Below, one piece after another: positions 9,929 through 27,974 of a DNA stretch of 54,478 bases (the stretch's first letter is position 1; each line of letters begins with the position of its first letter). Source of the stretch: Alistipes sp. (GTDB lineage: Bacteria > Bacillota > Clostridia > Oscillospirales > Ruminococcaceae); NCBI GenBank assembly GCA_023667265.1, contig JAMPAJ010000001.1, forward strand, positions 403,421 to 457,898, written 5' to 3'. Position numbers and translations under genes: made by a program. The notes beneath the pieces are model-generated. The model had not been told where the DNA came from. It saw only the letters and a program-made list of their open reading frames with translations, and did not search any database.

Positions 9929-9982
9929 AGTTTTTCTCCTTTCTGTCGGGGCAACGCCCACGGGCAATGAAAATTGTTTCTG

Positions 9983-10076: not shown

Positions 10077-10183
10077 CGCATTAATAATTTAATATTTTCC
10101 GCTCGCGGCATATCTGCGTCTGCACAAAATATCAGCGAGGAACTCGCGGCTACGTGAATTGCCCGCGGGGGCTGCCCCGCCGT
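10054..10183 (+). repeat. Family R1 structured repeat, forward orientation
   Basis: Full-length copy: GGACACGGCACGCCGTGTCC, CTACGCATTAATAATT, CGCTCGCGGCATATCTGCG, ATCAGCGAG-gaa-CTCGC, GGCTACGTGAATTGCCC and hairpin GGGGGCTGCCCC. It is followed directly by an R2 repeat. Confidence 0.8.
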
Positions 10184-10185
10184 CG

Positions 10186-10228
10186 CCTCTGAACTCTGCA
10201 AAAGGGACATTGTCCCTTTTGAAACCCA
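10186..10228 (+). repeat. Family R2 structured repeat, short form
   Basis: CCTCTGAACTCTGC and the hairpin CAAAAGGGACA-T-TGTCCCTTTTG, then AAACCC. It ends 17 bases before the stop codon of the FtsX permease gene, so it lies in the 3' region of that gene's transcript. Confidence 0.77.
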
Positions 10229-10244
10229 ATTTTATTTTGATTTA

Positions 10245-12533: not shown

Positions 12534-12600
12534 TTTCAGTGCTCCTTTTCTTGGTGTAATCATATTCTATCATGGAAATTATTAAATAATCCTTAAATGC

Positions 12601-12714
12601 GGCGGTGGGGCAGCCCCCACAGGCAATTCGCGGAGAAAATTTCGTCTGATGATATATCAGCGACCGCAGGGCGCGGTTACGTGAAACTGCCAGCGGGGAC
12701 TCCCCGCTGAAAAT
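12601..12714. repeat. Family R1 repeat ends, two copies tail to tail
   Basis: Left part (GGTGGGGCAGCCCCCAC, GGCAATTCGCGG) is the R1 end in reverse orientation. The right part (ATATCAGCGACCGC-aggGCGCGGT, TACGTGAAACTGCC, GCGGGGACTCCCCGC) is the R1 end in forward orientation. The central stem here is CCGC/GCGG where other copies have GCGAG/CTCGC, so the pairing is kept although the bases changed. The block fills the gap between the divergent FtsX and ppk genes. Confidence 0.72.
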
Positions 12715-12726
12715 TTTCCGCATGGG

Positions 12727-12755
12727 TTGCTTTTTTGCGGAGCATATGGTATAAT
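12727..12755 (+). promoter_or_regulatory. Promoter of ppk
   Basis: TTGCTT (12727-12732), 17-base spacer, TATAAT (12750-12755) with TGG before the -10. It directly follows the R1 repeat pair and a CCGCATGGG motif seen in similar form before the potA and proS promoters. Confidence 0.78.
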
Positions 12756-12797
12756 TAGAGTGAGAAAAAATGCCGTAAGGCAGTTAGGAGATATATT

Positions 12798-15138: not shown

Positions 15139-15780
15139 ATGATTGGTTTTTATAACTATACGGTTATTCTTACATATATGAGCCTCATTTCCTCCGTTGT
15201 GGGAATTTTCCTGGCAATGGGAGTATGCGGAGGCGAACCTCATCCTACGGCGGCTATAATCTGCCTTATGGTGTCGGGACTCTGCGATATGTTCGACGGC
15301 AAGGTCGCCCGGACTAAGAAAAACAGGACTGAAGACGAGAAAAAATTCGGCATACAGATAGATTCGCTCTGCGACGCTGTCTGCTTTGGTATACTTCCGG
15401 CGGTTATCGGATATGCCGTGGGTCTTGACAGCTGGGTGGACGTGCCTGTACTGGCTCTGTTTCCCCTGTGCGCCGTGATAAGACTTGCATATTTCAACGT
15501 TGCGGAGGAATCCCGGCAGAAAAAGACGGAAGAGGTGCGGAAGGTATACGAAGGACTTCCCGTCACAAGCGTTGCGCTGATACTGCCGCTGCTGTACAGC
15601 TTCCACAAGGACATCGGCAGCTGTTTTCCGCAGGTCTACGGCGTCGCCATGCTGGTTATCGCAATCGCGTTCATCACAAGATTCAAGGTGAAAAAGCCGG
15701 GAATGAAAACTATGCTTGCATTTATCGGCGTAGGTTTTGTGGAATTTGTCTGGCTGCTTTATAAGACTAAGCACAGATGA
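15139..15780 (+). CDS. pssA: CDP-alcohol phosphatidyltransferase, probably phosphatidylserine synthase
   Basis: 213 aa, AGGGGA before the ATG. The CDP-alcohol phosphotransferase motif is complete: D50..D53 G54..A57 R58, then G71, D75 and D79 (DMFDGKVAR ... FGIQIDSLCD). About six membrane helices are predicted. The size and the FGIQIDSLCD form match Gram-positive PssA, which joins serine to CDP-diacylglycerol in the inner membrane. A phosphatidylserine decarboxylase gene is in the same window (27111), which supports the serine assignment over other CDP-alcohol enzymes. Transcribed alone from its own promoter with a structured leader, and ended by a strong terminator. Confidence 0.88.
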   Translation: MIGFYNYTVILTYMSLISSVVGIFLAMGVCGGEPHPTAAIICLMVSGLCDMFDGKVARTKKNRTEDEKKFGIQIDSLCDAVCFGILPAVIGYAVGLDSWVDVPVLALFPLCAVIRLAYFNVAEESRQKKTEEVRKVYEGLPVTSVALILPLLYSFHKDIGSCFPQVYGVAMLVIAIAFITRFKVKKPGMKTMLAFIGVGFVEFVWLLYKTKHR

Positions 15781-15797: not shown

Positions 15798-15832
15798 TAA
15801 AAAAGAGGCAGGGTTTTTCCTGCCTCTTTTTT
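15798..15832 (+). terminator. Terminator of pssA
   Basis: AAAAAGAGGCAGG / CCTGCCTCTTTTTT with a GTTTTT loop, 20 bases after the stop. The A-rich 5' flank makes it work in either direction. Confidence 0.92.
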
Positions 15833-15852: not shown

Positions 15853-15991
15853 AGGGGACGCTCTCTCTTGCAGAGCGCCTAAAGGCATCATTGACCTGCG
15901 GTCAATATGGGACTCTGTCCCATACCCTGCCAAAGGCTCTGCCTCTGGACTCTGCAAAAGGGTCATTGACCCTTTTGAAACCCGGTGTTTA
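15853..15991 (+). repeat. Family R2 structured repeat, long form, copy 1
   Basis: GGGGACGCTCTCTCTTGC, then three hairpins: ATTGACC-tgc-GGTCAAT (15890-15906), ATGGGAC-tct-GTCCCAT (15907-15923), CAAAAGGGTCA-T-TGACCCTTTTG (15955-15977), then AAACCCGGTGTTTATGC. The copy at 26900-27092 shares the linear motifs and has all three hairpins with compensating changes. It lies between convergent pssA and the flavin reductase gene. The 410-base gap 15781-16190 contains only this, the terminator and the MITE-like palindrome. Confidence 0.85.
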
Positions 15992-16025
15992 TGCCTGCGC
16001 CGGAAATTTATTTTGCTGACTGCAA

Positions 16026-16189
16026 TAGACCTGTTCGAAAACTGTAGAAGTGCCGAATGACTCAGGATTTTTTTCGTCAGGCAAAGTCAAATTTTTGCAG
16101 GAATACTGTATGTATTTCAAGAAAATTTGACAAAGCATGACGAAAAAAGACGAGGCAGGCGGTACTTCGGAGGTTTTCGAACAGGTCTA
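16026..16189. mobile_element. MITE-like 164-bp long imperfect palindrome
   Basis: Perfect 17-base terminal inverted repeats TAGACCTGTTCGAAAAC (16026-16042) and its complement (16173-16189). The inside is also self-complementary with mismatches (TTTTTTCGTCA / TGACGAAAAAA, AAAGTCAAATTTT / AAAATTTGACAAA), so the whole element can fold into one long hairpin centred near 16107. It has no open reading frame and ends one base before the flavin reductase stop codon. The ends are T-A, compatible with a TA target duplication. Not a known IS as far as I can tell. Confidence 0.72.
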
Positions 16190-16190
16190 A

Positions 16191-16706
16191 TTATTCTTTC
16201 ACATAAACGCCCACAATTTCCGCAATATATGCCCTGTGATAGGGATTTGCGTCATTGCCGAAGAACCTCTCCGGAATACCGTCGTCGGTGAGAAAGCCCT
16301 TCTCCTCCAGGTCATAGCTGTACAGCTTACGGCATACCAGCACCATATCCGCCTGTTCAAAGCCGACACAGCCCTCAAGCTCCGCCGGAACAAGCCCGGT
16401 CTCCGCCATTTTGTCACAGTCTCTTCCGGAATGTCCGCCGCAGAAAGACAATGCGCTTCTGTACTCCTCGCCGAAAAACGATGCGGTAAAGCAGTCGGAC
16501 TCTTCAATAAATCCGTATGTATAGCGGTTCGGACGGATATAGCAGGTGAGCACGTTCTTGTTCCAGAGCACGCCTGCCTGTCCCCAGGACGCGGTCATGG
16601 TGTTGAAGCTGTCCGGCGTTCCGGCTGTAACGAGCATCCACTCCTTGCCTATTTTGGTGAAAGGCTGGAAATTCAGCTCCGAAATCTCGATTTTCTTGAA
16701 TGACAT
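16191..16706 (-). CDS. Flavin reductase-like (FMN-binding split barrel) protein
   Basis: 171 aa, AAGGAGG 8 bases before the ATG. It shows the flavin reductase-like fold signatures: WMLVTAGTPDSFNTMTASWG near the N terminus (residues about 23-42), YIRPNRYTYGFIEESDCFTASFF (about 56-78) and a late DPYHRAY-like NPYHRAYIAEI. Proteins of this family bind FMN non-covalently and reduce flavins or act as small oxidoreductases, often of unknown substrate in clostridia. The gene stands alone; the 3' end abuts the MITE-like palindrome, which could act as its terminator. A GACCTG-aag-CAGGTC hairpin lies in the leader just before the ribosome site (16725-16739). Confidence 0.83.
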   Translation of the reverse strand: MSFKKIEISELNFQPFTKIGKEWMLVTAGTPDSFNTMTASWGQAGVLWNKNVLTCYIRPNRYTYGFIEESDCFTASFFGEEYRSALSFCGGHSGRDCDKMAETGLVPAELEGCVGFEQADMVLVCRKLYSYDLEEKGFLTDDGIPERFFGNDANPYHRAYIAEIVGVYVKE

Positions 16707-16740
16707 AAAGATCCTCCTTGCGACCTGAAGCAGGTCAGAA

Positions 16741-16763
16741 TTTATTAAAGGCGATGCCGCCTA
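16741..16763 (-). terminator. Possible weak terminator of spo0A
   Basis: On the minus strand AGGCG-gcat-CGCCT followed by TTAATAAATT. The stem is short and the T tract is interrupted; it lies just after the spo0A stop. Read-through into the flavin reductase gene is plausible. Confidence 0.45.
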
Positions 16764-16775
16764 AAAAAACTTATA

Positions 16776-17540
16776 TCAGACATATTGATTATATTTTCCA
16801 AGCTCGGATTTATACCGCAGCCTGAGCTTGTCTGTGATAAGGGCGATAAACTCGGAATTTGTGGGCTTTCCCTTTCCCGTGTCCACTGTGTAGCCGAAGA
16901 AGGAGTTTAAAGTGTCCACATTTCCCCTGTCCCAGGCGATCTCAATGGCGTGGCGTATCGCACGCTCGACCCGGGAGGACGTCGTATCATAAATTCCGGC
17001 GACCGTGGGATACAGCACCTTTGTGATGCTGTCCAGCATTGATTTATCCTCAACGGAACGAAGTATCGCCGTTCTGATGTAGTGGTAGCCCTTGATATGA
17101 GCCGGCACGCCAAGCTGGTGTATAATATCGGTCACGACGATCTCCATATCGTCGCTGAAGCTGTCCGCCTTGCTTCCTATAGCCTCATTCAGCGCCCTGC
17201 AAAGCTCCTGAACGGTATATGGCTTCTTCAGATAGCACGAACAGCCGCTTTCCTCAGCCTGACGGCGGACATCGCCGCTGTCGCAGCTTGAAACGACAAC
17301 AAACGGAACCTTGCTGCTGCGTTCGCGCGCTCTTCTCATTATAGTAACGGCATCGCTGTTATCCGAAGAAATATCGAGGATCACAGCGTCCGGTCTGTCC
17401 TTGTCTATTGATTCCAGTATCGTTTCGCAGTCCTTCTTTCTCGTGTAAGCGAACATACCCTTTTCCCGGAGCATATTCGCCATGCTCACACCTGTCCAGG
17501 CTGTATCGTCGCCGATAAGCACCTTGATTTTCTTGTCCAT
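16776..17540 (-). CDS. spo0A: Stage 0 sporulation / stage-control response regulator Spo0A
   Basis: 254 aa, AGGAGG 6 bases before the ATG. Receiver domain 1-120 with acidic pair D11/D12 region (GDDTAW), phospho-acceptor D56 in AVILDISS, switch serine in VVVSS and lysine in LKKPY. The C-terminal Spo0A effector domain (about 140-254) is well kept: [34 protein letters not shown] and the recognition-end signature KPTNSEFIA. It binds 0A boxes (TGTCGAA core) when phosphorylated. The usual neighbour spoIVB is not present. Many ruminococci retain Spo0A but do not visibly sporulate, so the role here may be broader stage or stress control. A perfect 0A-box match lies in this window at 32216-32226. Confidence 0.94.
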
Positions 17541-17645
17541 TTTTTCCTCCTGTTTCTACTGCCCTCCGTCAATTGCGGCGGACTGTTCCGGCAGATATTA
17601 TACCTGCCGTCTTTATGTTTTATTTGGGATTTCTTCCCATATTCT

Positions 17646-17674
17646 ATATTATCATATAAAATACGCTCGTGCAA
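17646..17674 (-). promoter_or_regulatory. Candidate promoter of spo0A
   Basis: Minus strand TTGCAC (17669-17674), 17-base spacer, TAATAT (17646-17651) with TG one base before. A second TATAAT at about 17595-17602 sits inside a CGGCAG/CTGCCG inverted repeat but has no good -35; it could be a second promoter or a regulated leader. Confidence 0.55.
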
Positions 17675-17732
17675 GAGAAAACGCAGTCACAGTGTGTGGA
17701 AAATCCCATTATCTTATCGAAAAAAGGTGTGC

Positions 17733-17756
17733 GGCGGCGGGAAGCCCCCGCGAGCG
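17733..17756 (-). repeat. Family R1 hairpin end, partial copy
   Basis: GCGGCGGGAAGCCCCCGC followed by GAGCGAT, matching the hairpin end of R1 in reverse orientation. The rest of the element is not recognisable. It lies about 45 bases upstream of the Nudix promoter. Confidence 0.6.
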
Positions 17757-17801
17757 ATATTAACAGGAGATATTAATATTGGGAAAATTTTTTCGCGACT
17801 G

Positions 17802-17830
17802 TTGCAATTTTGCTATTTATATGATATAAT
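17802..17830 (+). promoter_or_regulatory. Promoter of the Nudix gene
   Basis: TTGCAA (17802-17807), 17-base spacer, TATAAT (17825-17830) with TG one base before; CGCG lies just upstream of the -35, as in several other promoters of this window. A perfect CTCACTG-cat-CAGTGAG hairpin (17851-17867) lies in the leader. Confidence 0.82.
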
Positions 17831-17893
17831 ATAAAATGAACATTCATACTCTCACTGCATCAGTGAGCACACTACGAACAGAAAGGATCAGAA

Positions 17894-18307
17894 ATGCTTC
17901 ACGAGAAATCATGCGGAGCTATTGTTTATCGTAAGTACCACGGAAATACCGAGATACTCCTTATAAAACATATCAACAGCGGCCATTGGTCTTTCCCGAA
18001 GGGTCATGTTGAGCCGGGAGAATCCGAAGCCGAAACGGCTGCCCGTGAGATAAAAGAGGAAACCGATATTGACGTTATGATCGACCCCACATTTCGTGAG
18101 ACCGTTACCTATTCCCCGAAAAAAGACACCATGAAGGTAGTCGTCTATTTTCTGGCAAAGGCGAAAAACGTGGAGTTTCATCCCCAGGAGAACGAGATCG
18201 CTGAGATACGCTGGGTAGACATATCCCACGCCGGTCACATCCTCTCCTATGAAAACGATAAAACAATAGTCATGAAAGCCAAATCCGCGATCAAGGAAAT
18301 CCACTGA
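17894..18307 (+). CDS. Nudix hydrolase, Ap4A-hydrolase-like
   Basis: 137 aa, AAAGGA before the ATG. The Nudix box is GHVEPGESEAETAAREIKEE followed by TDID (residues about 37-60): the metal-binding REIKEE core is intact, while the usual glycine after EE is replaced by threonine. The N-terminal SCGAIVYR and the WSFPKGHVE form match the bis(5'-nucleosyl)-tetraphosphatase (asymmetrical) group, which clears Ap4A and related dinucleotides. The substrate call rests on that resemblance only. It has its own promoter and a bidirectional terminator shared with the convergent LysR gene. Confidence 0.86.
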   Translation: MLHEKSCGAIVYRKYHGNTEILLIKHINSGHWSFPKGHVEPGESEAETAAREIKEETDIDVMIDPTFRETVTYSPKKDTMKVVVYFLAKAKNVEFHPQENEIAEIRWVDISHAGHILSYENDKTIVMKAKSAIKEIH

Positions 18308-18313
18308 ACGAAA

Positions 18314-18335
18314 AACCGCACTTTTACGTGCGGTT
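18314..18335. terminator. Terminator between convergent Nudix and LysR genes
   Basis: AACCGCAC (18314-18321) / GTGCGGTT (18328-18335), followed by CTTTT on the plus strand and by TTTTTCG on the minus strand, so it can serve both genes. Confidence 0.85.
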
Positions 18336-18339
18336 CTTT

Positions 18340-19272
18340 TCATTTTTCAGCGCTGATATTCTCAACAAATTCAGTGATATGATCCATACACGATTTCAGC
18401 ACGCGGTTGTTTTCGCTGGACTTCTTGCATATCATTATATCGCAGGTTTTCAGTATCGCCTGCGAACATTTCTTCGCAATCATCGGCGTAGTCACAGGGA
18501 TCATCGGCAGCCCGGGAGAGCTCCACATATACGCGTTTTTCACAGTCGCCAGCATTATCATCTTGCTTCCGTTGTCATACACGTATATACGCTTCGGGGC
18601 GCTGGCGTTCTCATAATCCGGATTGATGTAGCTTCTGTCAAAGACGCTCATCTCGTCGTCGGCATGAACTATTTCCGGATACTTTTTCAGTTCCTCGAGC
18701 GGAATATCGTCAAGCTGTGCAAGAGGGTGATCCTGCGACATTATCGGAGCCATACTGAACTCCGCCAGCTTCCGGGCATTTATCTTTCTTGCAGCCATCT
18801 GCTCCATAAACACGTCAAGCTGATTTCCGGGAACGCGGAAAACGCCTATATCCGCCTTTCCGGTGTTCACGTCCTCAATGACCTTGCTGGAAATATTCTC
18901 TATAAATTGCAGAGAGATCTTGTCCTCTCCGGAAATAGAGTTTACCCACTTGCCAAGGGCAACAGACATATATGCCGAGCGAACGGAGGATATGCGCACC
19001 GATACGCCGTCCTCTCCGCGGTTTGTATAGTCGTTTTCAAGGCTGTGCATACTTTCAACGATATCCTTTGCCCGGAGGAGGAAGCTCTCGCCCTCGGGCG
19101 TTATGACCATTCCGTTTGGCGTCCGCCAGAAGATCTGCATACCTATTTCAGATTCCAGCTCCTTCAGGGCGATGCTTATATTCGGCTGCGCCTGATACAA
19201 ATTTTTCGCCGCAGCCGTTATGCTTCCTGCATGAGCTATAGCTATGACGTATTCCAGTTGCTGCATTTTCAT
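18340..19272 (-). CDS. LysR-family transcriptional regulator
   Basis: 310 aa from the ATG at 19272, with GAGGGA about 9 bases upstream; a frame extension of ten codons lacks a ribosome site. Residues 1-60 are the LysR winged helix (MQQLEYVIAIAHAGSITAAAKNLYQAQPNISIALKELESEIG), and 90-300 the periplasmic-binding-like effector domain. No obvious target gene is divergent from it; the next plus-strand gene is ylxM, whose promoter is 160 bases away. The ligand is unknown. Confidence 0.92.
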   Translation of the reverse strand: MKMQQLEYVIAIAHAGSITAAAKNLYQAQPNISIALKELESEIGMQIFWRTPNGMVITPEGESFLLRAKDIVESMHSLENDYTNRGEDGVSVRISSVRSAYMSVALGKWVNSISGEDKISLQFIENISSKVIEDVNTGKADIGVFRVPGNQLDVFMEQMAARKINARKLAEFSMAPIMSQDHPLAQLDDIPLEELKKYPEIVHADDEMSVFDRSYINPDYENASAPKRIYVYDNGSKMIMLATVKNAYMWSSPGLPMIPVTTPMIAKKCSQAILKTCDIMICKKSSENNRVLKSCMDHITEFVENISAEK

Positions 19273-19325
19273 GTTTATATCCCTCACATTGCTTGCGCAC
19301 AAATTTTCGTTATCAATCAGAAAAT

Positions 19326-19354
19326 ATTATACCATATATTTTTTAAGTATTCAA
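19326..19354 (-). promoter_or_regulatory. Promoter of the LysR gene
   Basis: Minus strand TTGAAT (19349-19354), 17-base spacer, TATAAT (19326-19331) with TGG before the -10. Confidence 0.78.
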
Positions 19355-19511
19355 TAGATATTAAAAATTTATATTGTATAATTTTGTGAGATAACACATA
19401 GAAATCCCGGGATAATATATACAAATCGTAATAAAGAGCAGCTATTTTCCCTTTTGGAGACCAACGCTTGCAAATTGGTGATTGTTAAATATACTAAATT
19501 TATATTTTCCC

Positions 19512-19540
19512 TTGACAAGGGGCTGAATATGGTGTATAAT
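19512..19540 (+). promoter_or_regulatory. Promoter of the ylxM-ffh operon
   Basis: TTGACA (19512-19517), 17-base spacer, TATAAT (19535-19540), a full consensus match. The leader contains an inverted repeat GGTGTAA (19551-19557) / TTACACC (19570-19576) of unknown role. Confidence 0.88.
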
Positions 19541-19595
19541 AAATCTCGTTGGTGTAAACCTTTTTTGTATTACACCAGGCGTTTAGGAGACGGCT

Positions 19596-19931
19596 ATGGC
19601 AAAAAAACTTGAATTTGTAATGCTTCTTGACTGCTACGGCGAGCTTCTCACCGAGTATCAGAAAAATATCATGGAGCTGTATTACTGCGAGGATCTGTCC
19701 CTTGCGGAGATCAGCGAGCCTCTCGGCATCACAAGACAGGCTGTGCAGAATATGCTCCGCCGCGCCGAAAAGCTCCTTCTGAACTACGAGGAAAAGCTGG
19801 GCTTCGCAGAACGTCTTGAAAAAATGCGGCGCTGCTTCGGAAGCATCCGCAGTGCGGCAGATGGTCTGGACGACGATTCGCTGAAGCTGCGCATAGAAAA
19901 CGAGATCGCAAAGGGACTTGAGCTTCTTTAA
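19596..19931 (+). CDS. ylxM: YlxM-type helper of the signal recognition particle
   Basis: 111 aa, TTAGGAG before the ATG. The protein is a sigma-70 region 4-like helix-turn-helix (YYCEDLSLAEISEPLGITRQAVQNMLRRAEK, residues about 28-58) with a helical C terminus. YlxM proteins lie beside ffh in Firmicutes and Mollicutes and modulate SRP assembly or GTP hydrolysis. The gene is 14 bases upstream of ffh, in the same transcript. Confident by motif plus neighbour. Confidence 0.92.
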   Translation: MAKKLEFVMLLDCYGELLTEYQKNIMELYYCEDLSLAEISEPLGITRQAVQNMLRRAEKLLLNYEEKLGFAERLEKMRRCFGSIRSAADGLDDDSLKLRIENEIAKGLELL

Positions 19932-19945
19932 AAGGGAGGGAACGT

Positions 19946-21328
19946 ATGGCATTTGAAGGATTATCCGAAAAACTGAACAGCGTCTTCAAAAAGCTGAAAT
20001 CACGCGGAAAGCTGACGGAAAAGGACGTAAAGGAGGCTATGCGCGAGGTAAAGCTCGCTCTCCTTGAAGCCGACGTAAGCTATAAGGTCGTAAAGGACTT
20101 CGTAAGCAAGGTTTCCGAGCGTGCCGTCGGAGAAGAGGTTCTCAACAGCCTTACGCCTGCCCAGCAGGTCATAAAAATCGTTAACGAGGAGCTGTGCTCG
20201 CTTATGGGCAGCAGCAACTCCAGAATAAATTTCGCCTCAAAGCCGCCTACAGTCATCATGATGTGCGGTCTGCAGGGCTCGGGTAAGACGACCCATGCCG
20301 CAAAGCTGGCAAAAATGCTGAAAAAGGAAGGACACCGTCCCCTCCTCGCCGCCTGTGATATTTACCGTCCGGCAGCTATAAATCAGCTCCAGGTAGTCGG
20401 CGGAAAGGCTGACGTAAAGGTCTTTGAAATGGGGCAGACCGACCCGGTCATCATCGCTAAAAAGGCTCTCGCCCACGCTAAGGACTACGGTCACGACGTT
20501 CTTATCATCGACACCGCAGGACGTCTGCACGTTGACGAGGCTCTCATGGACGAGCTGAAAAAAATCAAGGAGTTTACTTCTCCCGACGAGATAATGCTGG
20601 TCGTGGACGCCATGACCGGTCAGGACGCCGTCAACGTTGCCAAGGCTTTCGACGAGGCTGTGGGAATTACCAGCGTGCTCATGTCAAAGCTCGATTCCGA
20701 TACGAGAGGCGGTGCGGCGCTTTCAGTTCTGTCCGTTACCGGCAAGCCTATCAAATATGTGGGAATGGGCGAAAAGCTGGACGATTTCGAGCAGTTCCAC
20801 CCGGAGCGTATGGCTTCGAGAATACTTGGAATGGGCGACGTGCTCACCCTTATCGAGAAAGCAGAAAACGTCATGAGCCAGAAGGAAGCCGAAAAGCTTA
20901 CCAAAAAGTTCAAGGAAAATAAGTTCGACATGAACGATCTGCTCGACCAGATGCGGCAGATACGCAAAATGGGCAATATGAAGTCCATTTTAGGTATGTT
21001 CCCCGGAGTCGGAAGCAAGATCAAGGACATGGATATAGACGACAAGCAGTTTGTGAGAATAGAAGCGATCATCACATCTATGACGACGGCTGAACGCGAA
21101 AAGCCCTCTATCATAAATCCGTCACGGAAGAGACGTATCGCGGCTGGAAGCGGCACTAAGGTCGAGGAGATCAACCGCCTGCTGAAACAGTTCGAGCAGA
21201 TGCAGAAGGTCATGAAGCAGTTCACCGGCAAGAACAACAAAATGAACCTGAGAAAGGCAAGAAAACAGCTTGCAGGAATGAATTTCGACAAAATGACGGG
21301 AAAGGGCGGAGGAAATCTGCCGTTCTGA
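19946..21328 (+). CDS. ffh: Signal recognition particle GTPase Ffh
   Basis: 460 aa, AGGGAGG before the ATG. N domain 1-85, GTPase domain about 86-295 with GLQGSGKTT (108-116), DTAGRLHVDE, and SKLDSDTRGG, and a methionine-rich M domain with the RNA-binding RRKR-type helix (SRKRRIAAGSG) to the end (MNLRKARKQLAGMNFDKM). It binds 4.5S/6S-type RNA and signal sequences and delivers ribosomes to FtsY. Usual length. It is followed at 71 bases by rpsP, the standard Firmicutes order. Confidence 0.97.
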   Translation: MAFEGLSEKLNSVFKKLKSRGKLTEKDVKEAMREVKLALLEADVSYKVVKDFVSKVSERAVGEEVLNSLTPAQQVIKIVNEELCSLMGSSNSRINFASKPPTVIMMCGLQGSGKTTHAAKLAKMLKKEGHRPLLAACDIYRPAAINQLQVVGGKADVKVFEMGQTDPVIIAKKALAHAKDYGHDVLIIDTAGRLHVDEALMDELKKIKEFTSPDEIMLVVDAMTGQDAVNVAKAFDEAVGITSVLMSKLDSDTRGGAALSVLSVTGKPIKYVGMGEKLDDFEQFHPERMASRILGMGDVLTLIEKAENVMSQKEAEKLTKKFKENKFDMNDLLDQMRQIRKMGNMKSILGMFPGVGSKIKDMDIDDKQFVRIEAIITSMTTAEREKPSIINPSRKRRIAAGSGTKVEEINRLLKQFEQMQKVMKQFTGKNNKMNLRKARKQLAGMNFDKMTGKGGGNLPF

Positions 21329-21399
21329 GGAGTTCTATAGATTTCACGCGTTAAAACGCTTGAATATACACAATAAAAATATTTCGGAGGTGAATACAA

Positions 21400-21642
21400 A
21401 TGGCAGTAAAGATCAGACTGAGAAGAATGGGCGCTAAGAAAGCTCCTTTCTACCGTGTAGTCGTTGCAGATTCCAGATACCCCAGAGACGGAAGATTCGT
21501 TGAGGAGATCGGTTACTACGACCCCACAAAGGAGCCCTCTGTTGTAAAGATCGACGCTGATAAGGCAAAGGATTGGATCGCAAAGGGTGCACAGCCTACA
21601 GACACAGTAAAGGTTATCCTGAAGAAGGAAGGTATCCTTTAA
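21400..21642 (+). CDS. rpsP: 30S ribosomal protein S16
   Basis: 80 aa, GGAGGTG 8 bases before the ATG. Starts [20 protein letters not shown], the family signature, and has the normal length. A small GCGTT/AACGC hairpin lies in the ffh-rpsP gap, and a GAGGTGAGAC/GTCTCAGCCTC hairpin follows the gene (21659-21683) before khpA; either could tune expression across the operon. Confidence 0.97.
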
Positions 21643-21709
21643 TCGCTTAGCTAAGGAAGAGGTGAGACTTTGTCTCAGCCTCTGTTCCGAAAGCTTACCG
21701 GAGGTTAAA

Positions 21710-21943
21710 ATGAAAGATTTACTTTATGCAATTGCAGCAGGTCTCGTTGAGGACAAGACTGCTATCAAAATTGTTGAGGACGAACCGGACGAGGAGGGCG
21801 TTATAAACTTCCACCTTTCCGTTGCTCCCGACGACATGGGCCGCGTTATCGGCAAGCAGGGCAGAATTGCCAAGGCGCTCAGAACTATTATGAGAGCCGG
21901 AGCTGCCAAGAAGGATCTCAAGGTTGCCGTGACAATTGAATAA
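21710..21943 (+). CDS. khpA: KH-domain RNA-binding protein KhpA
   Basis: 77 aa from the ATG at 21710, with GGAGG 5 bases upstream; the frame stays open 16 codons earlier but without a ribosome site. A single KH domain with the GKQGR loop (VIGKQGRIAKALRTI, residues about 45-59). It pairs with KhpB/Jag in other Firmicutes to bind many RNAs and affect division. In the common Firmicutes order it sits between rpsP and rimM-trmD-rplS; here a terminator follows it at once and those genes are absent. Confidence 0.95.
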   Translation: MKDLLYAIAAGLVEDKTAIKIVEDEPDEEGVINFHLSVAPDDMGRVIGKQGRIAKALRTIMRAGAAKKDLKVAVTIE

Positions 21944-21949
21944 TTTATC

Positions 21950-21976
21950 GGGGCTGATCTCTCAGCCCCTTATTTT
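21950..21976 (+). terminator. Terminator of the ylxM-ffh-rpsP-khpA operon
   Basis: GGGGCTGA (21950-21957) - tctc - TCAGCCCC (21962-21969) followed by TTATTTTAT. Confidence 0.88.
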
Positions 21977-21989
21977 ATAGAGGTAAAAA

Positions 21990-22796
21990 ATGAACATTAC
22001 AGAAAGCGAAAAATCAATACGTCAGGCGTTCGGGAAGAGCATCTGGACGAAATTCCGCCGGGGAATACGGGATTATCGGCTTATCTCTCCAGGCGACAAA
22101 ATCGCCGTCTGCATCTCCGGCGGCAAGGATTCAATGCTAATGGCGCAATGCCTGAAGCACCTGCACAGAAACGGCGAGATCCCCTTCGAGCTCGAATTTA
22201 TCGTCATGGACCCGGGCTACAGCGCGGAAAATATGGCGAAGATACGGGGAAACTGCGAGATTCTCGGCATCTCCCCGAAATTTTACAGGACGGAGATATT
22301 CAGCTCCGCCGAAAAGTCCCCGAAAAATCCATGCTTTCTCTGCGCAAGACTCCGGCGTGGATTTCTTTATAAAACGGCGCAGGAGCTGGGCTGCGGAAAG
22401 ATCGCACTGGGACACCATTTCGACGACGTTGTGGAAACAATTCTCATGGCGATGCTCTACGGCTCGCAGATGCAGACAATGATGCCCAGACTTGCGGCTG
22501 AAAATTATCCCGTCGAGGTCATAAGACCGCTCTATCTCGTCCGTGAGGCGGATATAATCGGCTGGGCAGAGCATAACGGGCTGGAATTTATCCGATGCGC
22601 CTGCAAAATGTCGGAAAACAGCGATAAAAGCTCCAAAAGGGCTGAGGTGAAGGAGCTTCTCCGTCAGCTCCGGCAGACAAACCCCGGAGTTGATATGAGC
22701 ATTTTCAGAAGCGCGGAAAATGTGGATCTGCGGCGGATAATCTCCTACCGCGACGGCAGTGAGCGGCATTGTTTTCTTGATAAATTCAGTGATTGA
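21990..22796 (+). CDS. TtcA-like PP-loop tRNA thiolation family protein
   Basis: 268 aa, GAGGTA before the ATG. The PP-loop SGGKDS is at 43-48 (adenylation of the substrate). Cysteines C115 and C118 (NPCFLCARLRRG) and C203 and C205 (RCACK) match the iron-sulphur-binding pattern of TtcA, which makes 2-thiocytidine at tRNA position 32. GHHFDD (141-146) is a further family motif. Firmicutes homologues of this size are usually named TtcA family without experimental proof, so the tRNA target is inference. It lies between the khpA terminator and the next promoter with no promoter I can identify, so read-through may drive it. Confidence 0.85.
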   Translation: MNITESEKSIRQAFGKSIWTKFRRGIRDYRLISPGDKIAVCISGGKDSMLMAQCLKHLHRNGEIPFELEFIVMDPGYSAENMAKIRGNCEILGISPKFYRTEIFSSAEKSPKNPCFLCARLRRGFLYKTAQELGCGKIALGHHFDDVVETILMAMLYGSQMQTMMPRLAAENYPVEVIRPLYLVREADIIGWAEHNGLEFIRCACKMSENSDKSSKRAEVKELLRQLRQTNPGVDMSIFRSAENVDLRRIISYRDGSERHCFLDKFSD

Positions 22797-22821
22797 CTTT
22801 TTTGGCGAAAAATGGTATAAT
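22793..22821 (+). promoter_or_regulatory. Promoter of the first cyclophilin-like gene
   Basis: TTGACT (22793-22798), 17-base spacer, TATAAT (22816-22821) with TGG before the -10. The -35 overlaps the stop codon end of the TtcA-like gene. Confidence 0.83.
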
Positions 22822-22874
22822 GAAAGAATAACAACGTGGAAGAATAGAATTATCAATCAACTCCGAGGTGCAGA

Positions 22875-23696
22875 ATGAAAAAGAAAATGTCAATGGGCAA
22901 ATTTATTATAATAGTCGCGCTCGTCATGGGCGTTCTTACCGTGGCTCTTCTCTATATTCAAGGAAAACAGGCAAAAAATAACACGTATATCAACATAGAC
23001 CCGGAAACGATGCAGCTTATCCAGCTTGAAGAGCCAAAAGCAGGCGCCCCTATAGCTATCGTTGACACGACTCTCGGCGAGTTCCGCTTCGTTCTCTATC
23101 CGGAGCAGTCTCCTAATGCCGTTAAAAATTTCGTCGAGCTGGCGGAAAGCGGCTACTATACCAACACCTACGTTTTCAATTCCGACAGCGGCGCATACTC
23201 GGCTGCCGGAAGCAAGCTGAAAAACGGCGAAATGCCCGAGGGCTACGACGTTTCCCGTGAGCTCGTGGAAAGAGAGCTGCACCAGGATCTCTGGCCCTTC
23301 AGAGGCGCGATATGCAGCATGACCACGACCATCGACCGAAGCTTCGGCGAAAGGATATTCGGCGGCGGAACATACTACAACGGCAGCCGTTTTGCAATAG
23401 TAAATTCTATCGAGTTCACCGACGAAATAAAGAAAGAGCTTATGGACAGCTCCCAGGATAAAGACCTCGGACAGGCTTTTATCGACAAGGGCGGAATACC
23501 AAATTTCTCCCAGCAGCTTACCGTTATCGGTCAGACCTATCAGGGGCTTGACGTGGTGGAGACTCTTGCAAATCTTGAATCGGAGAACAACGGAACTTAT
23601 ATGCTCCCGAAAGAGGATATCATGATAAATTCCGTGACCATTTCCACATACGAGCCGGAGGAGGATACGGCTGAAAATGAAAAAACTGCCGAATAA
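22875..23696 (+). CDS. Membrane-anchored divergent cyclophilin-like protein
   Basis: 273 aa, GAGGTG before the ATG. Residues 10-28 form one uncleaved-looking membrane helix; the rest (about 58-258) is outside and has a cyclophilin-type peptidyl-prolyl isomerase fold (IAIVDTTLGEFRFVLYPEQSPNAVKNFVELAESGYY, then FGERIFGGG and a closing VIGQTYQGLDVVETL). The strand that normally carries the catalytic FHR...FMIQGGD reads YVFNSDSGAYSAAGSK, so the catalytic arginine and glutamine are missing. It is probably not an active isomerase but a binding or chaperone paralogue of the next gene. Separate promoters serve the two genes. Confidence 0.8.
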   Translation: MKKKMSMGKFIIIVALVMGVLTVALLYIQGKQAKNNTYINIDPETMQLIQLEEPKAGAPIAIVDTTLGEFRFVLYPEQSPNAVKNFVELAESGYYTNTYVFNSDSGAYSAAGSKLKNGEMPEGYDVSRELVERELHQDLWPFRGAICSMTTTIDRSFGERIFGGGTYYNGSRFAIVNSIEFTDEIKKELMDSSQDKDLGQAFIDKGGIPNFSQQLTVIGQTYQGLDVVETLANLESENNGTYMLPKEDIMINSVTISTYEPEEDTAENEKTAE

Positions 23697-23762
23697 TTAA
23701 CGTTTTTCTACCGCTTTATCCTGCGGCAATCATTAATTATTACCAAAATTTTAAGGAAACTA

Positions 23763-23791
23763 TTTACAAACTGGCTTTTATGTTGTATAAT
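23763..23791 (+). promoter_or_regulatory. Promoter of the tandem cyclophilin lipoprotein
   Basis: TTTACA (23763-23768), 17-base spacer, TATAAT (23786-23791). The leader contains an ACGGCA/TGCCGT hairpin (about 23828-23856). An AATAATTAA / TTAATTATT inverted repeat enclosing a CCGC/GCGG stem (23692-23741) lies between the two cyclophilin genes. Confidence 0.75.
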
Positions 23792-23875
23792 TAATAGTTG
23801 GAGTATCAGAATAATATTGCAGACAGCACGGCATGATAAAAAAGCTGTGCCGTCCTTAAAAAGAGGTTTGATAAA

Positions 23876-25402
23876 ATGAATATAAAAAAGAAAATTCTGG
23901 CTGTTCTCCTGTGCGCGCTGACAGCCGGCTCGGTTCTGACTATGACCGCCTGCGGCAAAGATAAGGACGAGGAATCCGTCGGCTTCTCTGCAGAAGAAAA
24001 CGCGGAGATAATGAATTACACAGCTCCTAAAAACGGCGACAAGGTCGTCGAGATAACCTTCAAAGACTACGGAACAGTGAAATTCCGCCTGTTTCCGGAA
24101 TATGCCTCAAAGGGCGCGGAGAATTTCACTAAGCTGGCAGAAAGCGGCTACTATGACGGTCTTACCTTCCACCGCATTATCCAGGACTTTATGATCCAGG
24201 GCGGCGATCCCCTCGGCAACGGTATGGGCGGCGAATCGACCTGGGGCGGCAAGTTCGAGGGCGGTGTAAACGGTCACCTGATACACGTTCCCGGAGCCGT
24301 CGCATATGCAAACTCCGGCAGCACCTCCACGAACGGCAGCCAGTTCTACATCGTTACAGGCTCTTCCGTAACCGACGCCGATATGGACTCCATTGCTTCC
24401 TATACCGGAGCTGAGTTTTCCGAGAATCAGCGTAATCTCTACAAGGAGGTCGGCGGTACGCCAAGCCTCGACGGCGGCTATACCGTTTTCGGTCAGGTGT
24501 ACGAGGGTCTGGACATAATTTTCAATATCCAGTCCACCGCCACAGACGCGAACGACAAGCCTCTCAATAATGTCGTTATGGAAAGCGTAAGGATCACAGA
24601 GTATAACGGCGAGGAGCTGAAATGGCGTATCAGCGACTATGACTGGCAGCCGACAGCCCCTGTGAACTATACAGAGCCGCAGATCGGCGAGAAGATAGTC
24701 TCCATGAAAATCAAGGACTACGGCACTGTGAAATTCAAGCTTTTCCCGGAATATCTTCCGGATGCAGCCGAGAATTTCTTCCAGCTTGCTGAAAGCGGCT
24801 ACTATGACGGTCTCACCTTCCACAGAGTTATCAGCGACTTTATGATACAGGGAGGCGATCCCCTTGGTACGGGCATGGGCGGCGAATCAGCCTGGGGCGG
24901 CTCGTTTGACGGCGGAACATACGGCTCTTTGCTCCATGTTGCCGGCGCGCTGTGTTACGCAAACTCCGGCGCGACCTCCACTAACGGCAGCCAGTTCTAT
25001 ATCGTGACCGGAATGGAAATGAACGATACTATTTTCGCCAACGCTGCCGGATATTCCGAAAGCAAAATGGAAACATATTTAAAGGCAGGCTACGGCTATC
25101 CCTATCTCGACGGCAACTACACCGTTTTCGGACAGGTCATCGACGGTCTCGACGTTGTATTCAGAGTTCAGCAGACAGAGACTGACGACAGCGATAAGCC
25201 CCTGAACGACGTTATCATCGAGTCCGTGACAGTTGAGGAATACGACGGAAGCCCGGTAAAGTGGTATATAAGCGAATATGACATGACAGAGCCTGCAGCA
25301 GAAGCTCCCGAAGAGGACGAGGCAGGCGGCGAAGCTTCAGATGCGGAAACGACAGAGGGAGAAACAGAAGATACAGATACAGCTCCCGACTCTGCTGAAT
25401 AA
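23876..25402 (+). CDS. Lipoprotein with two cyclophilin-type PPIase domains
   Basis: 508 aa. Signal peptide with lipobox ending TMTAC (C26). Two homologous cyclophilin domains follow, about residues 55-240 and 268-468, each with the active-site segment FHR(I/V)I.DFMIQGGDP and the substrate-site NSG.TSTNGSQFYIVTG. An acidic Ser/Glu/Asp tail (about 475-508) ends the protein. It should catalyse proline isomerisation in proteins folding outside the membrane, like PrsA-type foldases but of the cyclophilin class. Tandem cyclophilin domains are uncommon; the two halves are alike at DNA level too, pointing to internal duplication. Confidence 0.9.
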   Translation: MNIKKKILAVLLCALTAGSVLTMTACGKDKDEESVGFSAEENAEIMNYTAPKNGDKVVEITFKDYGTVKFRLFPEYASKGAENFTKLAESGYYDGLTFHRIIQDFMIQGGDPLGNGMGGESTWGGKFEGGVNGHLIHVPGAVAYANSGSTSTNGSQFYIVTGSSVTDADMDSIASYTGAEFSENQRNLYKEVGGTPSLDGGYTVFGQVYEGLDIIFNIQSTATDANDKPLNNVVMESVRITEYNGEELKWRISDYDWQPTAPVNYTEPQIGEKIVSMKIKDYGTVKFKLFPEYLPDAAENFFQLAESGYYDGLTFHRVISDFMIQGGDPLGTGMGGESAWGGSFDGGTYGSLLHVAGALCYANSGATSTNGSQFYIVTGMEMNDTIFANAAGYSESKMETYLKAGYGYPYLDGNYTVFGQVIDGLDVVFRVQQTETDDSDKPLNDVIIESVTVEEYDGSPVKWYISEYDMTEPAAEAPEEDEAGGEASDAETTEGETEDTDTAPDSAE

Positions 25403-25420
25403 ACAGAACACGAGATAAAG

Positions 25421-25472
25421 GCAGCATCGCACGAGGATCGTGCATCAGACGCGCTTCATGCGGTGTTTCCTA
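25421..25472. repeat. Family R4 hairpin repeat, diverged copy, upstream of murA
   Basis: GCAGCATCGCACGA ... GCTTCATGCGGTGTTTCC with GCACGA-gga-TCGTGC inside and the conserved CAGAC in the loop region. It ends 45 bases before the murA GTG. Confidence 0.55.
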
Positions 25473-25516
25473 AAAACCGGGAAAAATTAGAGTTCCCGAA
25501 CTAAGGAGAGAATTAA

Positions 25517-26809
25517 GTGGATAAGTTTATTATCAAGGGCGGCCGCCGGCTGACCGGCGAGGTGACCATAAGCGGAGCGAAAAATGCCGCTGTAGCCATT
25601 CTTCCGGCTGTTATTCTGTCGGACGAGCCTTGCGTTATCGAAAACGTCCCGAATATAAGCGACGTAAATATCTGTCTGCACATACTTACTGAAATGGGTG
25701 CAGAGATAACAAAGCTTGACGCCAATATTTACAGGATAGACCCTACAAAGATCGACAAACACTGCGTGCCCTACGAGACCGCAAGAAAAATGCGCGCTTC
25801 TTACTATTTTCTCGGCGCGCTTCTGGGCAAATTCGGCAGGGCAAGAGTGTCTATGCCCGGAGGCTGTCCTCTCGGCGACAGACCTATCGACCAGCATCTG
25901 AAAGCGTTTTCCTCTATCGGAGCGGAATATACCCTTAGCCAGGGCATGATCGACCTCCGGGCGGAAAAGCTCCGGGGAAGCCAGATATTCTTCGACGTGG
26001 TAACGGTAGGCGCGACCATGAACGCCATGCTTGCAGCCGTAAAGGCTGAGGGACTGACAGTCATCGAAAACGCCGCTAAAGAGCCCCATATCGTTGACCT
26101 TGCAAACTTCCTCAACTCAATGGGCGCGAATATCATGGGCGCAGGTACCGACGTTATAAAGATACGCGGTGTGGAGCGGCTCAGAGGTACGACCTACGCC
26201 GTTATCCCCGACCAGATAGAAGCAGGTACGTTTATGGCTGCCATTGCGGCTACAAAGGGCGATGTTCTCATAAAAAACGTCATTCCTAAGCATCTTGAAT
26301 CCATAACGAAGAAAATGGAGAAAATAGGTGTGAATATAGAGCAGTTCGACGACAGCATCCGTGTCTGGGTGGATGGACCTCTTGTAAAGGCAAATATCAA
26401 AACTGCGCCGCATCCGGGATTTCCCACGGATATGCAGTCACAGATCGCCACGCTGCTGACTCTTGCAAAGGGGACGAGCATCATCACGGAAAATATCTGG
26501 GATCAGCGTTTCGGCTATGTTGACGAGCTGCGGCGTATGGGCGCGGATATAACGGTAAACGGCAAGGTCGCCCTGGTCGAGGGCACTGGAAAGCTCATGG
26601 GCGCACCTGTAAAGGCGTGTGACCTCAGAGCCGGAGCCGCCCTGATAATCGCAGGTCTTGCGGCAAGCGGCGTTACGGAGATCGAGGATATTTTCCACAT
26701 TGAACGCGGCTACGACTGCATGGAGGGAAAGCTTCGCGCACTTGGCGCGGATATTGAAAAGGTGAGTATTCCGGATACAAAGGTGAATACTAAGAAATCT
26801 GCGGTATAA
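25517..26809 (+). CDS. murA: UDP-N-acetylglucosamine 1-carboxyvinyltransferase MurA
   Basis: 430 aa, GTG start at 25517 chosen because AAGGAG lies 8 bases upstream and the protein then begins at the family's normal point (MDKFIIKGGRRLTGEVTISGAKN). K22 and the fosfomycin-target cysteine C117 in MPGGCPLGDRPID are present, as are the inside-out alpha/beta barrel repeats. It adds enolpyruvate to UDP-GlcNAc, the first committed step of peptidoglycan synthesis. Having the cysteine, it is expected to be fosfomycin-sensitive. Followed by a strong terminator. Confidence 0.96.
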   Translation: MDKFIIKGGRRLTGEVTISGAKNAAVAILPAVILSDEPCVIENVPNISDVNICLHILTEMGAEITKLDANIYRIDPTKIDKHCVPYETARKMRASYYFLGALLGKFGRARVSMPGGCPLGDRPIDQHLKAFSSIGAEYTLSQGMIDLRAEKLRGSQIFFDVVTVGATMNAMLAAVKAEGLTVIENAAKEPHIVDLANFLNSMGANIMGAGTDVIKIRGVERLRGTTYAVIPDQIEAGTFMAAIAATKGDVLIKNVIPKHLESITKKMEKIGVNIEQFDDSIRVWVDGPLVKANIKTAPHPGFPTDMQSQIATLLTLAKGTSIITENIWDQRFGYVDELRRMGADITVNGKVALVEGTGKLMGAPVKACDLRAGAALIIAGLAASGVTEIEDIFHIERGYDCMEGKLRALGADIEKVSIPDTKVNTKKSAV

Positions 26810-26818
26810 TAAAAAATC

Positions 26819-26848
26819 GGCTGTTGCATGAATTGCAGCAGCCTTTTT
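26819..26848 (+). terminator. Terminator of murA
   Basis: GGCTGTTGCA (26819-26828) / TGCAGCAGCC (26834-26843) then TTTTT, 10 bases after the stop. Confidence 0.9.
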
Positions 26849-26899
26849 GTATCAGTTCTTCTTTTTGCAAAATTGAATTGAATTTGCCAGGGTTGTTTT

Positions 26900-27092
26900 A
26901 GGGGACGCTCTCTCTTGCAGAGCGTCCCCTCTTTCAAAACAGTCCCCCGGACTGTTTTGAAATTCACCCCTTGCAGAGCGCCTGAAGGCATCATCGACGT
27001 TCCGTCGATATGGAGCTCTGCTCCATACCTCGCCAAAGGCTTCGCCTCTGGACACTACCAAAGGGACATTGTCCCTTTGGAAACCCGGTTTT
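26900..27092 (+). repeat. Family R2 structured repeat, long form, copy 2
   Basis: Five hairpins in series: AGGGGACGCTCT/AGAGCGTCCCCT (26900-26930), TTTCAAAACAGTCC/GGACTGTTTTGAAA (26932-26962), ATCGACG-ttc-CGTCGAT (26993-27009), ATGGAGC-tct-GCTCCAT (27010-27026) and CCAAAGGGACA-T-TGTCCCTTTGG (27058-27080), then AAACCCGG. It lies between convergent murA and psd, and matches the copy at 15853-15991 with paired changes in the stems. The 300-base gap holds nothing else except the murA terminator. Confidence 0.85.
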
Positions 27093-27110
27093 TACGCTTG
27101 CAAGAGTGGT

Positions 27111-27974
27111 TTATTGTGCTGAAATAGCTATACTTTCCCCGTATCTCACTACTGTCTCGGTTCCCTGAGCTGAATTTGCCAGTATATCGCTGTCCGGAAC
27201 AACTTTATCCTTCTCAAAAAGAAGAACTATCGTCGAGCCGCCGAACTCGAATCTGCCCTTTTCCTCGCCCCGGCGTATTTTTCCGGAGCTGTGAAGATTG
27301 CATATCCTGCCCACCATCATCGCGCCGACCTCGACCTGCATAACGTCGCCGAAATTTTCCGTGCAAAGCAGCGTACACTCCCGGCTGTTGCGCTTGTAGA
27401 TGTTGTATCGCTCCAGAGCTATCGGATTTACCGTGTGCAGCTCGCCTGGAATAAACCTGTTCACCGTTTTGGTGCCGTCGTCAATGTAGCAGTAACGGTG
27501 ATAGTCGTCCACGTCAAGGCGGAAGATCATGCACAGTCCGCCCTTATATCGCTCCGACGCTTTTCTGCTTCCCGTCAGCTCAGCCACGCTGTAGCTGGAA
27601 GCCTTGATATTAAAACGGCTGTTTTCCGTTATTTCATAAACTGTAAGCTTTGAATCGCAGGGGCTTATCAGATGCGTATTTTCCATGTCTACAGGACGCA
27701 CGTCCGGCTTGATCCTCCGGGTAAAAAACGCGTTGTAGGAGCTGTACCTCTCCGGCTGGAAATCGTCCATATTTATATTATTGTTCCTGATAAACGAGCC
27801 TATCATAAACACGGACAGCGGTGAATCCATGAATTTTCCGACAATTTTCGACACTATAGGCGCAGTCAGCCCTTTCAGGATAATGCGCCCGGGAACAGTC
27901 CTGTACAGCAGCTTCAGCGCCCTGCCCTGGCGCCTGTTCTCCGGAATGATATTTCCGCTTCTGTCCTTTATCAT
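27111..27974 (-). CDS. psd: Phosphatidylserine decarboxylase proenzyme
   Basis: 287 aa. The self-cleaving GGST motif is at 245-248 (RFEFGGSTIVLLF), where serine 247 becomes the pyruvoyl group; the DYHRYCY histidine segment (157-163) is also typical. It converts phosphatidylserine to phosphatidylethanolamine, downstream of the PssA encoded at 15139. The ATG follows the stop codon of the HgdB-like gene by three bases and its ribosome site (GAGG) is inside that gene's end, so translation is coupled. It is thus the third gene of an operon with a dehydratase-activase system, a pairing with no obvious metabolic logic. Confidence 0.93.
   Translation of the reverse strand: MIKDRSGNIIPENRRQGRALKLLYRTVPGRIILKGLTAPIVSKIVGKFMDSPLSVFMIGSFIRNNNINMDDFQPERYSSYNAFFTRRIKPDVRPVDMENTHLISPCDSKLTVYEITENSRFNIKASSYSVAELTGSRKASERYKGGLCMIFRLDVDDYHRYCYIDDGTKTVNRFIPGELHTVNPIALERYNIYKRNSRECTLLCTENFGDVMQVEVGAMMVGRICNLHSSGKIRRGEEKGRFEFGGSTIVLLFEKDKVVPDSDILANSAQGTETVVRYGESIAISAQ

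Follow-up and report, generated by a model that had tools for sequence, protein, structure and literature searches.

Two copies of a structured repeat in the window

The stretch analysed here, referred to as the window, comprises 54,478 nt of contig JAMPAJ010000001.1 (positions 403,421 to 457,898, forward strand) from assembly GCA_023667265.1, named Alistipes sp. and placed by GTDB in the Ruminococcaceae. It carries two intergenic copies of a repeat family that we named E, a short form (copy 1, 15853-15990) and a long form (copy 2, 26900-27093), both on the minus strand. Copy 1 is located between the convergent genes 15139-15780 (+) and 16191-16706 (-), and copy 2 between the convergent genes 25517-26809 (+) and 27111-27974 (-). 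Each copy follows the stop of the minus-strand gene and precedes a terminator-like hairpin, recognized by eye at 15799-15832 and 26811-26848, respectively. The extents of the copies were derived from an alignment and a covariance model, the latter extending copy 1 by four more bases. Copy 2, whose folded strand has its 5′ end at 27093 and its 3′ end at 26900, scores 227.9 bits with this model (G000:C11:430320-430513:-).

On the minus strand, the full E is built in the order AAACACCGGGTTTC, H6, H5, a 6-nt linker, H4, H3, a weak short stem, the linker GCGCTCTGCAAGGGGTGAA, H2 and H1. In copy 2, the 5′ half consists of H6 (27058-27080, 10 bp, 3-nt loop), H5 (27033-27051, 8 bp including one G·U on the minus strand), the linker preceding H4 (27027-27032, CGAGGT on the minus strand, its first five bases being the mirror of GGAGC, with which the H4 5′ arm ends), H4 (27010-27026, 7 bp) and H3 (26993-27009, 7 bp). 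These are followed by the weak stem (26980-26989, 3 bp, paired in 93.5% of cells), the conserved linker (26963-26981), which mirrors the H1 5′ arm and has no other constant partner, H2 (26932-26962, 14 bp, with the outer pairs being the most variable) and H1 (26900-26930, 12 bp, minus-strand loop GCAAGAG). Most of the hairpin loops are 3 nt long, as judged by eye. The full E measures 192-196 nt in the 41 copies of the alignment termed A1, and the covariance model built on these copies has 195 positions and 61 modelled pairs.

Copy 1 holds H6 (15955-15977), H5 (15930-15948), H4 (15907-15923), H3 (15890-15906) and a reduced H1 (15859-15877), in which the arms CGCTCT/AGAGCG enclose an unchanged H1 loop and the linker is fused to the H1 3′ half, while H2 and most of H1 are missing. 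To judge from its sequence, this short form looks as if it had arisen by a deletion between the direct repeats TTGCAGAGCG, leaving a hairpin with the H1 loop in place. Among 52 aligned copies, 43 are of the long form; of the other nine, six (copy 1 included) share the short form, two are cut at other sites and one contains masked letters.

The preliminary description of this locus had reported three stems with six paired changes between the two copies, and all of them were found in their places, the stems corresponding to H3, H4 and H6. A further hairpin, which it had compared between the copies, is H2, and as copy 1 has no counterpart of it, that comparison was not between homologous sequences. 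Not listed there was H5 (CCAAAGGC/GCCTCTGG), which in both copies shows an A·C mismatch on the strand read at that time and a G·U on the other strand. None of 200 shuffles folds as well as the native sequence in any of three RNA-folding comparisons, with z-scores of -7.8 for the minus strand and -8.5 for the plus strand of copy 2, and -5.1 for the minus strand of copy 1. Folding energy alone cannot tell the strand, because both strands of copy 2 fold better than their shuffles.

Abundance and distribution of E

The two copies belong to a large interspersed family of a Ruminococcus gut bacterium and its relatives, so the preliminary description was right in its observation and understated it. 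In the 2.57 Mb genome from which the window originates, the covariance model gives 85 matches at an E-value of 0.01, 61 of them above 55 bits. With the same model and a threshold of 1e-4, the genus has matches in 88 of 125 genomes, and the family in 76 of 347 genomes and 32 of 126 genera. A model restricted to an 82-nt core, described below, finds matches in 25 of 394 genomes of the order, namely nine of the same family, 11 of a second family (f24), in which E takes a weaker form, and five of four further families, each of these five with a single weak core hit. In a sample of the class, core matches are present in 6 of 391 genomes, all of the same family or f24. These large searches were run with stricter filters, at which weak matches are lost. 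In a pattern scan of named genomes, 78 of 80 among the matches listed are titled Ruminococcus, many of them R. flavefaciens. The G+C content of E is about 0.5-0.6 in most matches.

No match to one E copy was found in plasmids and phages at an E-value of 1e-5. A contig of a viral collection (L170, 23.8 kb) contains a 24-nt pattern and a partial E (positions 1-174, 116.8 bits) at the end of the stretch examined, and this may be host sequence or the edge of a provirus. In the related genome G079, several copies are located within 250 nt from a contig start (C118:1, C9:30, C69:43, C16:111, C25:230), and E repeats may thus break assemblies of rumen genomes.

Covariation and the constrained strand

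Alignments A1 and A5 were made with MAFFT, with no fitting to the model; A3 and A4 are model-fitted and therefore lean towards it. Of the 43 long-form rows, A1 comprises 41, without a truncated copy and a copy that has another H1. In A1, 99.4% of the 2498 pair cells form standard pairs; 193 cells are changed on both sides, 39 are changed on one side yet still paired, and 15 are unpaired, meaning that across the genome uncompensated changes are not as frequent as compensated ones. Double changes affect 20 pairs and 193 cells, compared with 12.1 pairs and 57.0 cells in shuffles, and the covariation score is 0.231 versus 0.093 in shuffles and 0.015-0.065 with the partners slid. Covariation in A1 exceeds all 500 shuffles on four of five measures, the fifth, the count of further pair types, being reached by 162 of the 500. 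Double-change cells are likewise in excess in further members of the genus (A4, 38 rows; 237 versus 55.7 shuffled), in other genera (A3, 24 rows representing 20 loci of 13 genera; 242 versus 57.7) and in the core aligned across genera (A5, 46 rows; 138 versus 31.3). The evidence for covariation, both genome-wide and family-wide, is overwhelming.

These results also bear on an origin of E as pieces of an ordinary transposon gene, or on a chance similarity between the copies, both of which are hardly credible and have no observation in their favor. Besides covariation above every shuffle on four measures, the two open reading frames overlapping the copies have no Pfam match at an E-value of 0.001, contrary to the transposon-gene outcome by which the preliminary description would have been refuted, and the 24-mer common to both copies (GGGGACGCTCTCTCTTGCAGAGCG) occurs twice in the window, compared with 0.00 times expected in window shuffles with up to three mismatches allowed.

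The six main helices show a strong asymmetry between the strands. On the minus strand, G·U exceeds A·C by 39:1 in cells and 10:1 in pair positions in A1, by 106:25 and 24:14 in A2 (the first 78 of 150 rows, model-fitted), and by 13:5 and 11:4 in A3 (22 of 24 rows, model-fitted). Many of the 39 cells in A1 represent a single inherited G·U in H5. The weak 3-bp stem shows no such bias, with G·U:A·C ratios of 6:6 (A1), 10:6 (A2) and 5:8 (A3), and when it is included the ratios become 45:7, 116:31 and 18:13, respectively. On the strand of the preliminary description, the same G·U cells are A·C mismatches. It follows from the excess of G·U over A·C that the fold of the minus strand, the complement of the strand read there, is constrained. 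This evidence is strong but not final, since a symmetrical DNA constraint or template switching would not predict the G·U bias, while strand-biased mutation could.

Double changes alone are no proof of selection on RNA, because an arm of a palindrome may be rewritten from its partner arm through template switching. This opens the way to an explanation in which E acts as DNA, its cruciforms being bound by a nucleoid or topology protein in the manner of bacterial interspersed mosaic elements (BIMEs), and the double changes stemming from template switching. The rarity of intermediates (15 unpaired among 2498 cells), the prevalence of 3-nt loops and the presence of palindromes consisting of H6 only, near 45411-45460 and 48040-48090 of the window, agree with such a scenario. 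The same can be said of a whole-H1 inversion resembling a DNA event, found in two of the 43 long-form rows (G000:C11:838027-838220 and C11:1338816-1339008, or L029 and L013), in which the loop CTCTTGC replaces GCAAGAG and the arms are nearly intact. However, symmetrical constraint and template switching both predict equal numbers of G·U and A·C, contrary to the 39:1 ratio in the main helices, and neither yields the mirror images described below, so we consider this explanation quite improbable. The G·U asymmetry and the mirror covariation are better evidence of a selected fold than the double changes. The proposal of the preliminary description, selection on a folded RNA or hairpin DNA, thus holds as far as covariation is concerned, but the constrained strand is the opposite one, the copies are mosaic units resembling mobile elements, and the double changes on which it relied are insufficient by themselves.

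Inverted pairs, gene context and turnover at junctions

In the genome of origin, nine inverted pairs of E (416-556 bp) have their H1 ends facing a spacer of 86-151 nt, which usually holds a terminator-like hairpin (by eye). In a tenth pair the copies are 870 nt apart, with a gene-like stretch between them. The inverted layout is also found in another genus, in two cases (L216, L217).

Twenty stretches of relatives were considered, seven of them by direct inspection and the others by the model only, which yielded weak matches and a single truncated one where a contig ends (L245, 54.5 bits). At the junction corresponding to copy 2, E is present in the genome of origin, a string of other hairpin modules in G079 (flanks 84-85% identical; its modules score 59.9 bits with the E model), modules in G073, and only a terminator in G123. 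On the 3′ side of the gene preceding copy 1, G079 has an inverted pair, G123 a single E in the orientation of the genome of origin, and G073 an E that is truncated and oppositely oriented. This pattern looks as if an ancestral pair had lost either of its arms. In genome G009, a 20-kb stretch holds three E copies, and for none of them does G010 have an E at the corresponding position. At place A, G021 carries an oppositely oriented E, its flanks being 95-99% identical to those of G010, and at place C both G010 and G021 have other sequence between matching flanks. E is thus a multicopy repeat that relatives have or lack, and have in one orientation or the other, at corresponding junctions, a comparison that the preliminary description had called for.

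Within the repeat, a 3′ core of 82 nt, composed of the linker, H2 and H1, is kept across genera, while the 5′ hairpins differ, and a few copies have a different hairpin in place of H1, such exchange of modules being judged by eye. Hairpin states reassort, with all four combinations present in 26 of 28 state pairs. Taken together, these features make it probable that E is a mobile repeat of intergenic regions, modular in build and non-autonomous, similar to BOX elements and to miniature inverted-repeat transposable elements (MITEs). In such a model, the folded single strand, either RNA or single-stranded DNA, would be the form recognised by a mobility protein acting in trans, which may bind the linker-H2-H1 core. 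The inverted pair would be the mobile unit, and single or short copies its deletion products. Copies would survive mainly between convergent and tandem genes because they are harmless there.

According to a simple gene caller, the neighbouring genes are convergent for 24 of 59 copies, tandem for 30 and divergent for 5 (raw counts); a 60th copy has no gene call on one side. The gene located 5′ of the folded strand is co-directional in 41 of the 60 copies, and in 31 of these 41 its stop is within 60 nt. Such a context could indicate that E is a resident RNA of 3′ untranslated regions, transcribed past stop codons, with tandem hairpins which protect or regulate the mRNA end or aid termination, and with its spread being secondary. 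The strand-specific G·U, the position of both window copies between a stop codon and a terminator-like hairpin, and the presence of E behind the same gene in all four genomes read at copy 1 speak in favor of this explanation. On the other hand, E in tandem gene pairs is oriented 17 times in sense and 13 times in antisense (members of inverted pairs counted singly), a terminator scan places terminator-like sites on the opposite side of some copies, and both presence and orientation differ between relatives. The 17:13 orientation rules out an obligate sense element of 3′ untranslated regions, and we regard the broader form of this explanation as unlikely, though deserving some weight.

Several observations weigh against a mobile repeat. 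The G079 genes flanking copy 1 are on different contigs, and the occurrence of E behind one and the same gene in all four genomes read there could point to retention for a function. Place B gives a less clean comparison, as this G009 copy lies within 2.3 kb that neither G010 nor G021 matches. Because other intergenic content also changes between relatives, gain and loss are indistinguishable at single junctions. No clear target-site duplication was seen by eye at the outer flanks of pairs and at junctions without E. An autonomous partner was not found, Y1 transposase being the only transposase family sought; its Pfam family (PF01797) has no match in the genome of origin (96.3% complete) and is matched in 5 of 14 control genomes, so Y1 was rejected as the mover of E.

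Mirror relation of the linkers to H1 and H4

A scan of all column pairs in A1 revealed that the strongest covariation outside the helices connects the H4 linker with H4, and the long linker with H1. The long linker follows the pattern GC-NNN-GCAA-RRRR-TGAA and the start of H1 the pattern A-RRRR-..GC-NNN, with the linker blocks being the reverse, and not the complement, of the H1 blocks. For instance, TCC/AGGG occurs with AGGGAACGCCCT (40 copies), TTC/GGGG with AGGGGACGCCTT (5 copies), TCC/AAGG with AGGAAACGCCCT (L195), TCC/GAGG with AGGAGACGCCCT (L202) and TCT/GAGG with AGGAGAGGCTCT (L216). Data were pooled from all 41 rows of A1, the first 105 of 150 of A2, the first 22 of 24 of A3 and the first 37 of 38 of A4, 205 names in total. 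Here A2 stands for 97 sources, comprising 96 of 105 stretches from the pattern scan of named genomes and the viral-collection contig. Linker and H1 were obtained for 126 names, and 79 were dropped as truncated, as having H1 replaced by another hairpin, or as outside the pattern.

The 126 copies form 32 haplotypes, and in the 74 cells where the predictions differ, 67 follow the mirror relation, 4 the direct relation and 3 neither (275, 10 and 3 of 288 when counted over copies). A relation by direct repeat or by strand exchange was accordingly rejected as the main one that links H1 and the linker. Mirror matches amount to 195, compared with a mean of 158 and a maximum of 174 with shuffled arms (0 of 2000 permutations), while the direct relation gives 132 matches versus 123.4 shuffled (p 0.005, anchored), a weak signal that probably comes mostly from equal lengths of G-runs. 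In family f24, not used to form the mirror idea, the mirror is the best of four relations among 20 related copies (p 0.001; direct, p 0.011). The H4 linker shows a full mirror of H4 in 72 of 135 copies, four of five bases in 56 and three of five in 7. Since copying cannot make mirrors, selection on structure is implied.

Other partners of the long linker were also considered. Other genera had suggested that it pairs with a segment further upstream (CCCCUU/AAGGGG). This was discarded, as 48 of 157 copies have no Watson-Crick partner of at least 4 nt and, to judge from the 60 copies inspected, the others have no constant one. A mini-hairpin of the linker itself, proposed by RNAalifold, was likewise set aside, one of its three pairs being C·A in 4 of 46 rows.

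Triple helices follow the triplet rules G·GC, A·AT, C·GC and T·AT, and the mirror base rules of E fit those of a triplex whose purine tract switches strands. The linker would run along H1 as a third strand, in antiparallel orientation to the 5′ arm (G·GC, A·AT) and in parallel orientation to the 3′-arm purines (C·GC, T·AT). We tentatively suggest, as a possibility and not as the expected outcome, that covariation exposes this third strand, the linker and both H1 arms changing together in a short alternate-strand triplex beside H2, and that the core is the signal for a folded strand moved as an inverted pair.

Some results argue against the triplex. In an unanchored longest-common-substring test on the same haplotypes, the mirror gives p = 0.36 and the direct relation p below 0.001, a disagreement attributed to the constant GCAA centre and equal G-runs. 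The mirror blocks comprise only 3 + 4 nt. A tree was built from the 82 nt of the core itself, with 43 of 46 rows. It shows two joint changes and no more for every one of four mirror pairs (p 0.0003-0.008), among them the middle base, at which mirror and direct coincide, and no mirror pair is significant in this count after correction over 2100 non-helix pairs. The rule is broken at the first base of the 3-mer in 28 of 126 copies, a position where the mirror and direct predictions are often equal. Exceptions include CCT with TCT arms (17 copies), CTC with CTT arms (9 copies) and single others. As a separate observation, one G fewer in the linker is accompanied by one G fewer in the H1 arm in L257:17520-17695, L258:14271-14455 and seven copies with the linker run GGG.

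Mirror repeats able to form triplexes are familiar as H-DNA, which combines mirror symmetry with the rules G·GC/A·AT and C·GC/T·AT. E would share both the symmetry and the triplet rules, but its mirror is short, interrupted and placed beside a hairpin, and support comes from covariation and not from tract length. We know of no bacterial mobile repeat with a third strand revealed by covariation, and if the third-strand reading is true, E would be a rare case of a triple helix exposed by comparative sequence data alone.

Relation to known repeat families

In agreement with the preliminary description, which had recognized no named family, Rfam (release 15) gave only three tRNAs at the gathering cut-off in the window, and a permissive Rfam search of five loci returned six hits, all below the cut-offs of their families. 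Among the papers listed by literature searches, with subscription journals mostly outside their scope, none is about repeat E by its title.

BOX of Streptococcus pneumoniae (PMC3049150) is a modular, intergenic and MITE-like element with 125 copies in one genome, some of them expressed. It has a predicted fold if transcribed, with base pairs colored by conservation in a figure. Its boxA and boxC enclose boxB units in a tandem array of variable length, and target-site duplications are reported. E is also modular, intergenic, multicopy, MITE-like and predicted to fold. It is set apart by a 3′ core that is conserved although the 5′ hairpins differ, by the arrangement of inverted pairs on either side of a terminator-like spacer, and by mirror covariation. 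With bacterial MITEs (PMC10969869), E shares the short, non-coding, intergenic and stem-loop-forming character and its multicopy state. Inverted ends are seen in the nine inverted pairs and are lacking in single copies. It differs from MITEs in not being AT-rich; no clear target-site duplication was seen by eye, and no parental transposon was found, with Y1 as the only family sought. REP/BIME sequences with RAYT (PMC3733652, PMC2817692) likewise consist of palindromic units in alternating orientation and in mosaic intergenic arrangements. Their unit is a single palindrome of 20-40 nt, in contrast to about 195 nt and seven helices in E. The missing Y1 match in its own genome separates E both from these and from elements of the IS200/IS605 type (TnpA).

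By its looks, E is a family not described before within a known class, the small modular mobile repeats to which BOX belongs, and it has two unusual features, the strand-specific fold seen in the G·U bias and the mirror covariation. How small structured intergenic repeats of bacteria move, and whether their folds matter, are mostly open questions in general. Both become testable in cultured Ruminococcus with E, which is present in dozens of copies per genome and in many genera, covaries very strongly, and has a defined strand and a core of 82 nt.

Neighbouring repeats

The two H6-only palindromes of the window, made of the outermost hairpin, are near-perfect and carry both GAAACCCGG tails; they are possibly scars from the loss of an inverted pair. 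A separate palindromic repeat at 16026-16189 (47-nt arms, TAGACCTGTTCGAAAAC...) adjoins copy 1. It was absent from the inspected stretches of G123 and G073, and is present in G079 (C54:18827-18990) beside a match to the same neighbouring gene, as well as in G079:C44 and G119:C8. A second modular repeat family (CTCGCGG..CACGTGAATCGCC.., with hairpins of the GGGGCAGCCCC type) fills the intergenic regions 3846-4456, 9033-9169, 9968-10244, 12564-12797, 40079-40444 and 50813-51168, and also forms part of the spacer in several inverted E pairs.

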